A stretch of DNA of 64,000 nt. Origin: Roseimicrobium gellanilyticum (lineage in GTDB: Bacteria > Verrucomicrobiota > Verrucomicrobiia > Verrucomicrobiales > Verrucomicrobiaceae). Below, one piece after another: positions 37,422 to 43,011 of this stretch (the first letter of the stretch is position 1; each line of letters starts with the position of its first letter). The stretch lies in NCBI RefSeq assembly GCF_003315205.1, contig NZ_QNRR01000005.1:124001-188000 (forward strand). Direction: 5' to 3'. A program made the position numbers and the translations under genes. The notes below the pieces were generated by a model. The model was not told where the DNA came from. It saw only the letters and a program-made list of their open reading frames with translations, and did no database searches.

Positions 37422-37862
37422 CTACTCCATCTTCCTTCTCAGCTTCTTCAGCAGCTCGGCATTTCCTTCGAGCTCCTCCAGGATCAACGTGAGCACCTTC
37501 AGTGTGCTCTTGCTCATGTGGTGCTCCATGCCCTCCACGTCCCGGTGCACGGTTTCCGCGTCGAGGCCGAAGCCGGTGAGCAGACGCGAGAGGACGTCGT
37601 GGCGGCGGGCGATGGCCTGGCCGACTTTTTTTCCCTCGGGGGTGAGGGTCACGCCGCGGTAGCGCTCGTAGATGACGCAGCCCTCGGCGTCCAGTTTCTG
37701 GATCATGTTCGTCACGCTGGCCTGGGAGATGCCGAGATTGCGTGCGATGTCCACTACGCGGGCGTAGCCCTTGGTTTCGATGAGGTTATGAATCTGCTCC
37801 AGGCAATCCTCGCTGGCGCGGGATTGTCCGTTGGCTGGAGTGGTTTTGCGGGCGGCGGGCAT
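37422..37862 (-). CDS. mntR: Manganese-responsive repressor MntR
   Basis: The product has 146 residues in the DtxR/MntR family. The winged-helix domain includes KGYARVVDIARNLGISQASVT, and the wing is ERYRGVTLTPEGKKVG. All six metal ligands of B. subtilis MntR (Asp8, Glu11, His77, Glu99, Glu102, His103) are present at a constant offset of 11: Asp19, Glu22, His88, Glu110, Glu113 and His114. There is no SH3-like domain, as expected for MntR. It is divergent from the metal-transport operon, and palindromes in the 109-base gap are its likely sites. Confidence 0.93.
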   Translation of the reverse strand: MPAARKTTPANGQSRASEDCLEQIHNLIETKGYARVVDIARNLGISQASVTNMIQKLDAEGCVIYERYRGVTLTPEGKKVGQAIARRHDVLSRLLTGFGLDAETVHRDVEGMEHHMSKSTLKVLTLILEELEGNAELLKKLRRKME

Positions 37863-37943
37863 GCTTCGGGGGCTGACAACAGCTTCGGCGAAAGTGGCGG
37901 CTTGTTCAACAGGAACGAAACAAACTAAGCCCTTGCCAAAAAT

Positions 37944-37969
37944 GTTAGCCTCGTCTAACTCTGTTAACA
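37944..37969 (+). promoter_or_regulatory. Probable MntR operator before the metal-transport operon
   Basis: GTTAG-CCTCGT-CTAAC (37944-37959) and the palindrome TGTTAACA (37962-37969) lie immediately before the ATG at 37972. The position suggests that bound repressor would cover the promoter or start site. Between TTGCCA (37933-37938) and the ATG there is little room, so the transcript may be nearly leaderless. Confidence 0.6.
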
Positions 37970-37971
37970 TC

Positions 37972-38907
37972 ATGAAATACTTTTCTCTTGTCCCAACACT
38001 GGCCGCCCTCGCCGGACTGGTGCTGGCCTCGTGCAAACCGACCCCTCCGCAGCCGTCTGACGGCAAACTCTCCGTGGTGACTACCACGACCATGATCACG
38101 GACATGGTGAAGGAAATCGGCGGAGATCAGGTTCGGGTAGAGGCTCTCATGGGACCGGGCGTGGACCCGCATCTGTACAAGCCCACCGCGGAGGACGCCC
38201 GCAAGCTCCGCGAGGCCAAGGCGACTTTTTACAACGGTCTGATGCTGGAGGGGCGGATGCAGGAGCTTTTTGAGAAGTCCAAAAAGGACGGCGGGAAGGT
38301 CTATGAACTCGGCTCCGCCATCAACGAGGCGAACCGCAAGCACGCGGATGGCGACCACTATGATCCCCACGTCTGGGGCGACCCTCGCCTGTGGGTGCTC
38401 TGCGTGGACGTGGTGGTGAAGGGCCTGAGCGAGACGGATCCCGCCCATGCCGCGGACTACGCCAAGCGAGGCGCTGAGACCAAGGCCAGCTACACGGCCG
38501 CCTTTGAGTGGTGTCAGCAGCGCGTTTCGCAGATTCCGCCGGAGTCGAGGGTGCTCATCACGAGCCATGATGCCTTTGCCTATTTTGGCGATGCCTTTGG
38601 GTTCCAGGTGGTTGGGGTGCAGGGCATCTCGACGGTCACGGAAGCTGGCCTGGCGGACGTGGCCAAGGCGGTGGATTTCATCAAGAGCAAGAATGTGAAG
38701 GCCATCTTTGTGGAGTCCTCCGTGCCGCATGCCACCATTGAGCGCATCAGCAAGGACAGCGGTGCGAAGATCGGCGGTGAACTCTTCTCCGATGCGCTCG
38801 GCACGCCGGGGGACATGAAGGACGTCGGAGGCGAGAAGGTCGACCAGGGAACCTATGTCGGCATGATCAAGAGCAACGTGCACACCGTCGTGGAGGCGCT
38901 GAAGTAG
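37972..38907 (+). CDS. Metal-binding lipoprotein of an ABC transporter (TroA/YtgA-like)
   Basis: The product has 311 residues. A lipoprotein signal ends LASC with Cys21. The cluster A-I metal-binding fold has likely ligands His67 (DPHLYKP), His133 (DPHVWGD), His199 (TSHDAFAYF) and Asp274 (FSDALG), the pattern of TroA. His at position three leaves Zn, Mn and Fe all possible, while the MntR neighbour favours Mn or Fe. A short acidic/His stretch (HADGDHYDPH) precedes the second ligand. It is the first gene of the operon and carries the substrate to the permeases encoded downstream. Confidence 0.93.
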   Translation: MKYFSLVPTLAALAGLVLASCKPTPPQPSDGKLSVVTTTTMITDMVKEIGGDQVRVEALMGPGVDPHLYKPTAEDARKLREAKATFYNGLMLEGRMQELFEKSKKDGGKVYELGSAINEANRKHADGDHYDPHVWGDPRLWVLCVDVVVKGLSETDPAHAADYAKRGAETKASYTAAFEWCQQRVSQIPPESRVLITSHDAFAYFGDAFGFQVVGVQGISTVTEAGLADVAKAVDFIKSKNVKAIFVESSVPHATIERISKDSGAKIGGELFSDALGTPGDMKDVGGEKVDQGTYVGMIKSNVHTVVEALK

Positions 38908-38945
38908 TCATTGGGTGTCAGTTTTTAGTCATCAGTCATTTGGTC

Positions 38946-39764
38946 ATGAGAGTATCTATCTTGTTCCTTTCGCTCTTCCCGGTGGTGTGCCAGGCACTCG
39001 AGCCGGCCTCGCCGCCTGACAAATCCAGCTACACATTGCTGAATCCTACGCCGCGCGAATTCATGCGTGAGATGAGTACGGATCGGCCAGACACCACGGA
39101 GAGTGCGTACTCGGTGGATGCGGGCCACTTCCAGGTGGAGTCGACGTTGTTCGGCTTTGCCAAGGACGGCGGTGTGGAGGGCTTTACGTTTGCGGAATCC
39201 AACTTCAAACTAGGCCTCACAAACAACACCGACCTCCAGCTGGTGGTTCCCTTCTATGAGCACGTGCGCGGGGATGGTGTGGATGAGGGTGGCATTGGCG
39301 ATTTGCAGGTGCGCTGGAAGTGGAATCTCCTGGGTAATGACCAGGGTGACATCGCGCTCGCTGTCATGCCTTTCATCAAGGCGCCCACGGCAAGCCACGA
39401 CCTGGGCAATGACAAGGTGGAGGGGGGTGTGATCCTCCCACTGGCGGTGACGTTGAACGACACCTTCAGCTTTGGTACCATGTTCGAAGTGGACTGGGTG
39501 TACGATGACGTGCGTGATGGTTACGAAGTGGATTTCGTAAACACCATCGTGTTGGGCATCGAACTCTCTGAGCGCTGGGGTTCCTTTGTGGAATTCATCA
39601 GCGTGGCAACCACCCGGGCCGAAGCTTCGTGGGAGGGTTATGCGAAAGCCGGTGTCACTTTTGCTGTCTCGGACGATTTCGTATTGGACGCCGGCGCTGC
39701 TGTTGGCGTGAATGATGCAGCGGAGGACTTTGGTGCTTTCGTAGGCTTTTCTTGGAGGCATTAG
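38946..39764 (+). CDS. Outer-membrane transporter-like beta-barrel protein
   Basis: The product has 272 residues. A signal peptide (about 1-18) precedes a beta-rich domain with alternating hydrophobic residues and a terminal aromatic (FVGFSWRH). The opening MSTDRPDTTESAYSVDAGHFQVEST motif is typical of the MetA-pathway/transporter-type beta-barrel family. It lies 38 bases after the binding-protein gene and 10 bases before the ATPase gene, so it is part of the operon. A channel for metal entry across the outer membrane is a reasonable inference; nothing in the sequence shows metal binding. Confidence 0.75.
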   Translation: MRVSILFLSLFPVVCQALEPASPPDKSSYTLLNPTPREFMREMSTDRPDTTESAYSVDAGHFQVESTLFGFAKDGGVEGFTFAESNFKLGLTNNTDLQLVVPFYEHVRGDGVDEGGIGDLQVRWKWNLLGNDQGDIALAVMPFIKAPTASHDLGNDKVEGGVILPLAVTLNDTFSFGTMFEVDWVYDDVRDGYEVDFVNTIVLGIELSERWGSFVEFISVATTRAEASWEGYAKAGVTFAVSDDFVLDAGAAVGVNDAAEDFGAFVGFSWRH

Positions 39765-39774
39765 CAATTTTTCA

Positions 39775-40557
39775 ATGAGCGAACCCCTGACCCCGGCACT
39801 GGAGCTTCACGATCTCACGGTTTCTTACCAGAAGAAGCCTGTGCTCTATGGCGTGGATCTTCAGATTCCGGAGGGGTCGCTCGTAGGACTCATCGGTCCC
39901 AATGGCGCGGGAAAGAGCACGCTCATCCGTGCCGTGATGGGGCTGCTGCCGCTCTCGAGTGGCTGGGTGAAGGTCTTCGGCCAGCCGTTCAAGGATGCCC
40001 GCAAGCGTGTCGGCTACGTGCCGCAGCGTGAGGAGGTGGATTGGGACTTTCCCGTGAACGTCATGGACGTGGTGCTCATGGGAAGGTACGGGAAGTTGGG
40101 GCTCTTCAAGCGGCCGGGCAAGGAGGACCGCGAAAAGGCCCGTGAAGCGCTCGACAAGGTCTCCATGCTTCCTTTTGCTGGAAGACAGATCTCCAACCTC
40201 AGCGGTGGCCAGCAGCAGCGGGTGTTCCTTGCACGAGCGCTGGCGCAGGAAAGTGACCTGTATCTCATGGATGAGCCCTTCGCCGGGGTGGATGCGGCTA
40301 CGGAGCGCGCCATCATTGCGTTGCTCCAGGAGCTGAAATCCCGAGGCAAGACCATCCTGGTGGTCCATCATGATCTCACGACGGCGCGGGAATACTTTGA
40401 CCGGCTGGTGTTGCTGAACATGCGCGTGGTGGCCACGGGTCCCACGGAGCAGATATTCAATGCGGAGCTGTTGCAGAAAACCTACGGTGGCAAGCTCACC
40501 CTGCTGAGCGATGTCACGAGCGAACTGGCGCGTAGCGAAAGGGGGGAGCGGGGATGA
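39775..40557 (+). CDS. Metal ABC transporter ATP-binding protein (YtgB/MntB-like)
   Basis: The product has 260 residues. It has Walker A GPNGAGKST (about 42-50), the Q-loop in VGYVPQREEVDWDFP, signature LSGGQQQRVFLARAL, Walker B LYLMDEPFAGVD, and switch His in LVVHHDLTT. The VPQREEVDWDFPVNVMDVV stretch is typical of Mn/Zn/Fe importers of the MntABC/ZnuABC type. It powers uptake through the two permeases encoded directly downstream. Confidence 0.95.
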   Translation: MSEPLTPALELHDLTVSYQKKPVLYGVDLQIPEGSLVGLIGPNGAGKSTLIRAVMGLLPLSSGWVKVFGQPFKDARKRVGYVPQREEVDWDFPVNVMDVVLMGRYGKLGLFKRPGKEDREKAREALDKVSMLPFAGRQISNLSGGQQQRVFLARALAQESDLYLMDEPFAGVDAATERAIIALLQELKSRGKTILVVHHDLTTAREYFDRLVLLNMRVVATGPTEQIFNAELLQKTYGGKLTLLSDVTSELARSERGERG

Positions 40558-40570
40558 CCCGCGCTTGGAG

Positions 40571-42052
40571 ATGAACCGTCAGGGCATGATATCCAGGTTC
40601 GCAAGGCACGGGCGCAAGATCCTGATGCTGCTGTTGCTGGCATTGGTGGTCGCAAGTCCCGCGCACGCTGCACGGATTGGCGATGTGACGGACACCAATG
40701 CGTGGGAGCAGGCCCTGCGTTTCTTCAGTTTCCGTGACGATGGCCTGCGTGTGGCGTTGGCTGGTTGCATGCTGTTGGGGTTGAACTGCGGCCTGCTTGG
40801 CGGGTTCATCGTGGTGCGTCGTCTCTCGCTCGTGGGAGATACACTTTCACATGCAGTGCTCCCCGGGGTGGCACTGGGTTTCCTGTGGAACATGAGCAAG
40901 CACCCCGTGGCCATCCTGGTGGGCGCTACCTTGGTTGGCGGCCTGGCCATGCTGGTGGTGAATGTCATCACGCGCACTACGAAGCTGAAGCAGGACACGG
41001 CGCTGGGTCTCGTGCTCTCGTCATTCTTCGCGATTGGCTTGTGTCTGGTATCCATCATCCAGCAGTTGCCCACAGGGAACAAAAGCGGCCTGGACAAATT
41101 CTTCTTCGGCCAGGCGGCCGCGATCTCGGAGGGTGACCTGTGGCTGTTGTCCGGCACTTCGCTGGTGTCGCTCACATTCCTCGCAGTGTGTTATCGAGGC
41201 CTCCTCACGCTGAGTTTTCATCGCGGTTATGGGGAGACGCTCGGCCTGCCCATGAGCTGGCTGCATCACGTCCTCATGCTTCTCACCTCGTTCGCGGTGG
41301 TGACCGCGATGCAGGCAGTGGGAGTCGTGCTCGTCTCCGCCATGCTCATCATTCCTGCGGCCACGGCGTATCTGCTCACCGATCGCATGCACCGGCTGCT
41401 GGTGTATGCGGCGGTTCTGGGCGTGCTCACGGCGGCGTTGGGAGCCTTCTTCTCGTTCCTTGGAAACAATCTGCCCACGGGGCCTTTCATGGTACTCGCG
41501 GGAGCGGTGTTCTTCCTGGCGGCGTTCTTCCTGAGTCCCCGTCACGGCTGGCTGGTGAGGCTGTGGCGACAGCGTTCCCGTCGTCTTCGCACCGAGCGTG
41601 AGAATACGCTCAAGGCAATGCATCGTGTTCTGGAGAACCGCCAGTTTCACGGAGAGTCCGTGTCGCTGCTGGAGCTGGCCCAGCTCCGCCGTGAAACGCT
41701 TGAGGAAAGCCGGCTTCGGGCGCTTGAGCTGCAGCGTGCGCATCTGGCCACCCTGAGTGAGGGCGGCAAGGAATTGCACTTCACCCCGCAGGGCTGGCAG
41801 CAGGCGCAGGCCATTGTGCGGAATCACCGGCTGTGGGAGCTTTACCTCACGAACATCATGCAGTTCGAGTCGGACCATGTGCATGATGAGGCGGAGAAGA
41901 TCGAGCACATCCTCGGTGCGGACGCGGTGCGCGAGCTCGAGCGCAAGCTGGCGTTCCCGCAGACCGATCCGCACGGGCGTAAGATTCCGGGCGTGCGCGA
42001 GGCAGACATGGCCCCGCAGCCAACCTCGGACCTCACCGGTTACAAGTCATGA
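40571..42052 (+). CDS. Metal ABC permease fused to a DtxR-like regulator (YtgCR-like)
   Basis: The product has 493 residues. Residues 1-335 form a MntB/ZnuB-type permease with a hydrophobic leader and about eight helices, including GGFIVVRRLSLVGDTLSHAV. Residues 340-493 form a winged-helix plus metal-binding and dimerisation domain of the DtxR family. His419, Glu423, His438, Glu442, Glu445 and His446 align without gaps with DtxR His79, Glu83, His98, Cys102, Glu105 and His106, with Glu in place of Cys102 as in MntR. This architecture is known from chlamydial YtgCR, where the regulator is released by proteolysis. The start at 40571 is a choice between ATGs at 40511, 40571 and 40586. Confidence 0.92.
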   Translation: MNRQGMISRFARHGRKILMLLLLALVVASPAHAARIGDVTDTNAWEQALRFFSFRDDGLRVALAGCMLLGLNCGLLGGFIVVRRLSLVGDTLSHAVLPGVALGFLWNMSKHPVAILVGATLVGGLAMLVVNVITRTTKLKQDTALGLVLSSFFAIGLCLVSIIQQLPTGNKSGLDKFFFGQAAAISEGDLWLLSGTSLVSLTFLAVCYRGLLTLSFHRGYGETLGLPMSWLHHVLMLLTSFAVVTAMQAVGVVLVSAMLIIPAATAYLLTDRMHRLLVYAAVLGVLTAALGAFFSFLGNNLPTGPFMVLAGAVFFLAAFFLSPRHGWLVRLWRQRSRRLRTERENTLKAMHRVLENRQFHGESVSLLELAQLRRETLEESRLRALELQRAHLATLSEGGKELHFTPQGWQQAQAIVRNHRLWELYLTNIMQFESDHVHDEAEKIEHILGADAVRELERKLAFPQTDPHGRKIPGVREADMAPQPTSDLTGYKS

Positions 42053-43011
42053 GCCAGTTGATCCCAGCTTTCGATTTTCACCGTATGGTGGTCTCGCCAT
42101 GGACGGATGCGATCGATGTGTACGGGTGGATGGTGCTCATGGCCTTCCTCGTCACTGCCACGTGCGGCCTGGTGGGGAATTATCTCATCCTGCGTCGCAT
42201 GGCGTTGGTGGGAGACGCCATCAGCCACAGTGTGCTTCCGGGTCTGGCCGTGGCTTATCTTGCCACGGGCGCGTTGTCGATTCCCATCATGTTTGCCGGG
42301 GCGCTGGGAGCCGGGCTTCTCACCACGGGGCTTATTGAATTCATCCACACGCGCTCCCGCATCAAGGCGGACGCGGCCATCGGCATCACGTTCTGCACCC
42401 TGTTCGCGCTCGGTGTGGTGATCATCAATGTCTTTGCCTCGCGCGTGCACCTGGACACCGATTGCGTGTTGTACGGCGAGCTGAGCTATCTCAGCCGTGG
42501 TGCGGATGAAATCGCTCCGCAGGAAGTGCTGGTGATGGGTGGGGTGGCTATTGTCGTGGCACTTTTGATCGCGCTCTTCTACAAGGAACTGCTTGTCAGC
42601 TCGTTCGATGCATCACTGTCGGCATCGCTGGGCTTCCCTCCCAAGCTCATCCACCTCGCACTCATGGCGGTGCTTTCCATTGTGATTGTGTCGGCGTTTG
42701 AAAGCGTGGGGGCCATCCTGGTGATTGCCACGCTCATCCTGCCGGGTGCCACGGCGCAGCTTATTAGTTCCCGGCTTTCCGCCTGTCTGTGGCTGAGTGT
42801 GGTCTTTGCGGCCATCAGCTCGGTGCTTGGTTTGCATCTCAGTCTGTGGATCGGCAGCTCCATGGCGGCCGCGGTGGTGGTGTCGGGGACAGGATTGTTC
42901 GTCCTGGCGTGGCTGTTTGGCCCCCATGGATTGCTGCGCAGTCGTGCGGCGACCCACAATGCGATCGATGGGGGAAAGGAAGTTTCGTCCGCCGGTAGGG
43001 TGACGGAATAG
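42049..43011 (+). CDS. Second metal ABC permease (YtgD-like)
   Basis: The product has 320 residues with about eight membrane helices. The family motif is NYLILRRMALVGDAISHSVLPG, and the conserved VSAFESVGAILVIATLILPGATA lies near residue 205. It forms the channel together with the preceding fused permease. Its ATG overlaps the previous stop by 4 bases (ATGA), which implies translational coupling. The C-terminal 25 residues after LFGPHGLLRSR are polar and lie in the cytoplasm. Confidence 0.93.
   Translation: MSQLIPAFDFHRMVVSPWTDAIDVYGWMVLMAFLVTATCGLVGNYLILRRMALVGDAISHSVLPGLAVAYLATGALSIPIMFAGALGAGLLTTGLIEFIHTRSRIKADAAIGITFCTLFALGVVIINVFASRVHLDTDCVLYGELSYLSRGADEIAPQEVLVMGGVAIVVALLIALFYKELLVSSFDASLSASLGFPPKLIHLALMAVLSIVIVSAFESVGAILVIATLILPGATAQLISSRLSACLWLSVVFAAISSVLGLHLSLWIGSSMAAAVVVSGTGLFVLAWLFGPHGLLRSRAATHNAIDGGKEVSSAGRVTE

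Follow-up and report, generated by a model that had tools for sequence, protein, structure and literature searches.

The 64-kb window (the whole stretch of Roseimicrobium gellanilyticum DNA that was analysed) contains an operon on the + strand that encodes a metal-binding protein of the ZnuA/MntC type (PF01297; 37972..38907), a PF13557 protein (38940..39764), an ATPase (39775..40557) whose top two NCBIfam matches are Mn/Fe and Mn ABC ATPases, each below its cut-off, a 493-residue fused permease (40571..42052) and a second ABC-3 permease (42049..43011), the start of which overlaps the stop of the fusion. The fused permease consists of an ABC-3 permease (residues 59-321) followed by a DtxR-like C-terminal domain (residues 338-479); the second permease has no such domain. 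Divergent to the operon and upstream of it, on the - strand, lies a gene for a stand-alone MntR of 146 residues (37425..37862) with both the DNA-binding (PF01325) and the metal-binding (PF02742) domains, which the first-pass annotation had overlooked, and between this gene and that of the binding protein is a putative MntR operator, TTAGCCTCGTCTAA (37945..37958). Analysis of the sequence suggests that the locus encodes a Mn(II)- or Fe(II)-type ABC importer, the first permease of which carries a DtxR-derived cytoplasmic domain. The order binding protein, ATPase, fusion, permease agrees with that of chlamydial ytgABCRD, to which it had been likened at first, except that the PF13557 gene is interposed between the binding protein and the ATPase, so that the match is not exact. 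Homologs of the PF13557 gene occupy the same place in 17 of 77 loci; its product is possibly an outer-membrane part of the uptake route, which is a guess.

The fused permease is encoded by one uninterrupted open frame, with its ATG at 40571 and its stop at 42052. The concern that a sequencing error had affected the fusion is set aside by an uninterrupted ortholog of 91% identity in the same genus and by the 13 of 68 family genomes, its own included, that carry the fusion at full length. Pfam assigns ABC-3 to residues 59-321 (E 7e-67) and Fe_dep_repr_C (PF02742), the metal-binding and dimerisation core, to residues 405-473 (41783..41989, + strand; E 1.3e-24). By eye, residues 1-35 (40571-40675) resemble a signal peptide, with a hydrophobic run to AHA-A, which is odd before a permease.

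An AlphaFold2 model of the fusion, for which 73 aligned fusions served as input (mean pLDDT 89.6, pTM 0.84), agrees with the single frame and the Pfam domains in supporting a permease with a fused DtxR-like domain. Residues 44-330 of the model superpose on the permease of the PsaBC Mn(II) importer (7kyp; Z 35.3 over 272 residues), although the matched chains, at 258-290 residues, are too short for a C-terminal domain of this kind. Residues 338-479 superpose on residues 3-139 of DtxR (Z 18.8, 2.0 A, 137 residues), which places a winged-helix fold in the fused domain; as modelled, the C-terminus of the permease comprises both domains of a DtxR-like fold in full. When eleven fused domains were made into a profile, this likewise matched DtxR-type regulators over their first two domains, among them the Mn-dependent regulator 5zr4 (E 6.7e-27). 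The domain shares its fold over about 137 residues, as well as its metal ligands, with DtxR (1bi2), DR2539 (8pvt), SloR (5cvi) and other DtxR/MntR/IdeR proteins; unlike them it is fused to a membrane protein, and the Pfam scan of the 493-residue fusion found neither a match to the DtxR DNA-binding model PF01325 nor a FeoA domain. The six residues H419, E423, H438, E442, E445 and H446, correctly named as ligands in the first-pass annotation, align with the DtxR ligands H79, E83, H98, C102, E105 and H106. Glu442 thus stands at the Cys102 position, as that annotation had also recognised, and N345 occupies the position of DtxR M10. The alignment, described there as gapless, is so across residues 405-473 and contains small gaps in the winged-helix part. 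In the model a single helix (residues 327-356; 41549..41638, + strand) bridges the end of the membrane domain and helix 1 of the winged helix, an arrangement still compatible with cleavage.

An ABC-3 permease and a C-terminal DtxR-like domain in one frame make up the architecture of Chlamydia trachomatis YtgCR (CT069), as had been proposed, and this architecture is widespread in Verrucomicrobiota. According to three papers (PMC7755916, PMC5599777, PMC6504234), YtgCR is an ABC-type metal permease with a C-terminal DtxR-like domain, encoded in the ytgABCD operon; YtgR is cut from YtgC, runs at 28-30 kDa and acts as a repressor at the promoters of ytg and trpBA, and no other iron regulator has been identified in Chlamydia. 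PMC5599777 cites Thompson 2012 for permease-DtxR fusions in 11 phyla, which means that a fusion of this kind has precedent. What differs here, by comparison with YtgCR as it is described, is the companion stand-alone MntR with its box and the loss from the fused domain of the DtxR DNA-binding signature. The fragment of about 17 kDa that was predicted to be released from the Roseimicrobium protein would not match the size reported for YtgR. The domain order and the metal core are as described for YtgCR, the modelled DtxR fold is complete, and cleavage and repression by YtgR are on record for C. trachomatis; the Roseimicrobium fusion could on these grounds be a dual protein: once cleaved from the permease, its C-terminal domain would form a metal-dependent dimer and repress the operon, either by itself or together with MntR. 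The comparative evidence below makes this unlikely.

A scan of contigs gave 581 confirmed stretches, of which the best 80 were kept; judged by their titles, 78 of these bear verrucomicrobial names, one is named Candidatus Sumerlaeota and one Klebsiella, and none is chlamydial, so that the sample is uninformative on absence there. Cultivable relatives with the fusion include Rubritalea marina (L088) and Persicirhabdus sediminis (L093). The stretch labelled as a Klebsiella pneumoniae metagenome-assembled genome (L064) carries an operon of the verrucomicrobial type, and its label is probably wrong. Long frames in two other genomes (G017, G107) proved not to be permease fusions. There were 103 distinct sequences of fused first permeases (permease-1), of which 76 are less than 85% identical to each other; 73 of the 76 were scanned, two with unknown residues and one partial sequence (L062) being left out. 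They were compared with stand-alone regulators picked by similarity to the window MntR or to the fused domain (set A3), 47 of whose 48 kept rows were aligned, with one fragment (L089) omitted and the window MntR in place of its own copy (L005).

The metal-binding domain PF02742 was found in 73 of 73 permease-1 fusions, in nine of nine fusions of the second permease (permease-2) and in 47 of 47 stand-alone regulators. The DNA-binding domain PF01325 was found in all 47 stand-alone regulators and in none of the 73 permease-1 fusions (at E up to 0.01) or the nine permease-2 fusions. The permeases of a second phylum, that of G259 (titled Candidatus Sumerlaeota), gave 12 of 21 for PF02742 and 0 of 21 for PF01325. 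Among all 103 permease-1 fusions, H419, E423, E445 and H446 are invariant (103 each), H438 is His in 88 and Asp in 15, and E442 is Glu in 86 and Asp in 17; His to Asp and Glu to Asp both keep ligand character, and ligands so nearly invariant fit selection for metal binding. Of the 15 fusions with Asp at the H438 position, L046, L050 and L052, for example, have Asp at E442 as well; this variant site possibly has another metal preference.

The part of the domain that would read DNA has drifted. At the position of the DtxR recognition helix (residues 376-390; 41696..41740, + strand), the signature of the stand-alone regulators is missing from the Roseimicrobium fusion, which has E378, E379, R381 and R383. 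Mean column entropy in the 73 fusions is 0.23 bit for the ligands and 2.67 for the recognition helix, compared with 0.35 and 1.62 in the 47 stand-alone regulators. Four recognition-helix features, picked after inspection of the alignment columns, are all present in 46 of the 47 stand-alone regulators (the other has one); 37 of the 73 fusions have none of the four, 28 have one, seven have two and one has three. The window fusion scores 0/4 on these features and 6/6 on metal ligands, and the window MntR 4/4 and 5/6. At the position of DtxR Thr40, 47/47 stand-alone regulators have Thr or Ser, and 49/73 fusions have Glu or Asp. Thus the DtxR sensor that had been called intact is so in its metal core and not in its DNA-reading part, for which PF01325 is unmatched, and the comparison points to a fused domain that is of the metal-binding type and is probably not a typical DtxR DNA binder. 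The net charge of the helix fails to separate permease-1 fusions (mean +0.29) from stand-alone regulators (+0.26), and the recognition helices of permease-2 tails are basic (mean charge +2.8); with the fold retained and these helices basic, some DNA binding is possible. The absence of PF01325 is the main argument here, and it weakens if YtgR, which is reported to bind DNA, also fails to match this model.

Transcription of the operon would be the task of the stand-alone MntR. The longer frame of its gene (37422-38105) scores 141.8 against the NCBIfam MntR model PRK03902, whose cut-off is 138. The putative operator is the sole TTAG-N6-CTAA in the 64-kb window, where 0.04 are expected, and the same pattern precedes the binding-protein gene in 32 of 74 regions, the window included, as against a mean of 0.34 in base shuffles. 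A second operator-like box, TTTGA-N4-TCAAA, was seen in the same place in 15 of the 74 regions (e.g. L115, L119 and L122), none of which has TTAG-N6-CTAA. Before regulator genes, TTTGA-N4-TCAAA was seen only with regulators of at least 219 residues; TTAG-N6-CTAA is found mainly, not exclusively, before short MntR genes. All 12 of the family genomes sampled that lack the fusion (hand-picked out of 55) have an MntR gene with TTAG-N6-CTAA upstream, so that neither MntR nor its box requires the fused domain. This finding, the full DNA-binding domain of the adjoining MntR and the score of 0/4 for the fused domain of the window all speak against the proposal of the first-pass annotation that the fused domain is the cleaved repressor of its own operon. 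The box was not found before mntR in five family fusion genomes that have mntR elsewhere (L190-L194), and the palindromic pattern is not enriched genome-wide, with 8 sites compared with 51 for a reversed control pattern. No wider MntR regulon emerged: the downstream gene was scanned at 3 of the 7 other sites, and these led to an MFS gene (L226), a CHASE3 gene about 0.9 kb away (L227) and a CHRD gene (L231), none of them a metal gene.

The fused domain is not the sole DtxR-type regulator of its genome, which has two PF02742 genes. A second PF02742 gene is present in 11 of the 12 other family genomes with the fusion, the twelfth being 85% complete, and in 45 of 50 further fusion genomes that were sampled, a large share of which are metagenome assemblies; in the other five of the 50 it was not seen. 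Three of the 50 (G211, G212 and G250) are probably repeats of family genomes (G167, G169 and G149), with the same coordinates, and in G229 the second PF02742 match holds an in-frame stop. Of 77 loci in which the binding protein is seen (69 with at least 700 bases upstream of it), 26 have a DtxR/MntR gene near the operon. Among the sampled genomes, therefore, it is rare for the fusion to be present without another DtxR/MntR gene. This is unlike the situation described for Chlamydia, where YtgR is the sole identified iron regulator, and together with the separate MntR and its own box, the missing PF01325, the lost recognition-helix signature and the junction spanned by one modelled helix, it leaves a cleaved, YtgR-like repressor with a low probability.

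Phylogenetic analysis indicates that the domain and the permease have a shared history. In a domain tree of 82 out of 129 rows (26 of the 73 permease-1 fusions, all nine permease-2 fusions and all 47 regulators), the fused domains form one clade apart from the stand-alones (100/97). The distances between permeases correlate with those between domains (Mantel r 0.85; none of 999 permutations as high); the permease and the fused domain diverged together. In a permease tree of 97 rows, computed by a quick method with SH-aLRT support only, permease-1 proteins with any tail group in a single clade (99), and a separate clade (99) holds the permease-2 proteins, tailed and tailless alike. A single origin followed by losses would fit the trees. 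Non-fused operons of the family were considered as natural losses of the domain and rejected as such; the 17 loci, which include three of the 12 sampled genomes without the fusion (G157, G159 and G189), sit in another ABC-3 lineage in the permease tree and are evidence only of MntR and its box occurring where there is no fusion.

The first-pass annotation considered that the arrangement may be ancestral in the PVC superphylum; the same kind of fusion occurs in the second phylum, that of G259, and fusions are on record from 11 phyla. Both permeases carry the domain in eight loci of Verrucomicrobiota and six of the second phylum. At six further loci of the latter (L220-L225), the tail of both permeases is a winged helix of about 95 residues, and the metal-binding domain is missing; nine of the 12 permeases concerned were used in one comparison. 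A model of one such permease (mean pLDDT 90.3) has a comparable long helix. On a plasmid of Azospirillum ramasamyi, a permease (L198:4890-6113) has a tail that appears by eye to be a degenerate winged helix without metal ligands, unmatched by PF02742, and a divergent mntR (L198 2392-2841) lies beside it.

Retention of the winged helix without the metal part at L220-L225 would suit a structural tail, in which the winged helix is a protein-contact module that joins permease and ATPase and the metal of the site is structural and carries no signal. So would W422, which is present in 82/82 fusions and only 2/47 stand-alone regulators, and R373 and N418, which are nearly invariant among permease-1 fusions. 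The ligands, near-invariant in 103 fusions with sole changes that preserve their character, make a purely structural role improbable. DtxR-type sites act as sensors in known relatives. This, and the fact that no acceptor is known, render it very improbable that the domain is a metal chaperone or sink that takes the ion leaving the channel and passes it on, even though the domain is attached at the cytosolic end of this protein and has an intact site.

We propose instead that the fused domain is probably not a cleavable repressor but a tail that senses metal and adjusts transport, a reading that draws on sequence comparison and the model. The stand-alone MntR would control transcription of the operon at the TTAG-N6-CTAA box, and the fused domain would bind imported Mn or Fe in the cytosol; the metal-bound domain would then change its packing against the permease or the ATPase, and import would most likely be slowed when metal is plentiful. 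We assign this feedback gating a probability of roughly 60%. It would require neither cleavage nor DNA binding. Transporters with regulatory domains fused to them are well known; those of the MetNI and ModBC importers are on the ATPase and have a different fold. The proposed logic resembles theirs, in that substrate inside the cell switches the importer off; a 2023 review (PMC10710835) reports that methionine and molybdate importers are inhibited by substrate, and the word DtxR is absent from its text. Unlike those systems, the present one has a DtxR fold on the permease, and its feedback is a proposal. In the open-access literature searched, no paper on gating of transport by a fused DtxR domain was found.

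Several lines of evidence support the sensor reading: PF02742 is universal and PF01325 absent in permease-1 and permease-2 fusions, unlike in stand-alone regulators; the ligands are near-invariant, the recognition helix has drifted and DtxR/MntR genes coexist with the fusion; MntR and its box occur without the fusion, and one modelled helix (327-356) spans the junction; and the fused domains form their own clade, diverge together with the permease and recur on both permeases. Against it stand the retained winged-helix fold, the basic helices of permease-2 tails and the equal helix charge of permease-1 fusions and stand-alone regulators; the report of chlamydial YtgR as a DNA-binding repressor; the presence of the domain on just one of the two permeases here, though the DtxR type forms dimers; and the five of 50 genomes without a second PF02742 gene, the missing box at the mntR genes of L190-L194 and the lack of genome-wide enrichment. 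The winged-helix-only tails on both permeases of some relatives suggest that the tail may do more than sense metal.

A broader history can be offered tentatively, at somewhat less than even odds: a DtxR-type repressor captured by an importer lost its reading of DNA and became an allosteric gauge, so that the same metal is sensed by MntR on the promoter and by the fused domain on the transporter. Loci with two fusions, and tails made up of the winged helix alone, would represent steps or side branches of this process, and chlamydial YtgR would be an exception that still, or again, acts on DNA.

In the open-access literature searched, the only worked example of a permease-DtxR fusion is YtgCR of Chlamydia, a transporter with a repressor of its own attached. 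The present comparison suggests that the fused domain is no longer a typical DtxR DNA binder, either in Verrucomicrobiota or in the relatives sampled from a second phylum, and that in Verrucomicrobiota it works beside a true MntR or DtxR; caution is therefore advisable in annotating permease-DtxR fusions as repressors. If the sensor reading is true, importers of this type would each have a sensor for the metal that they carry built into the permease.
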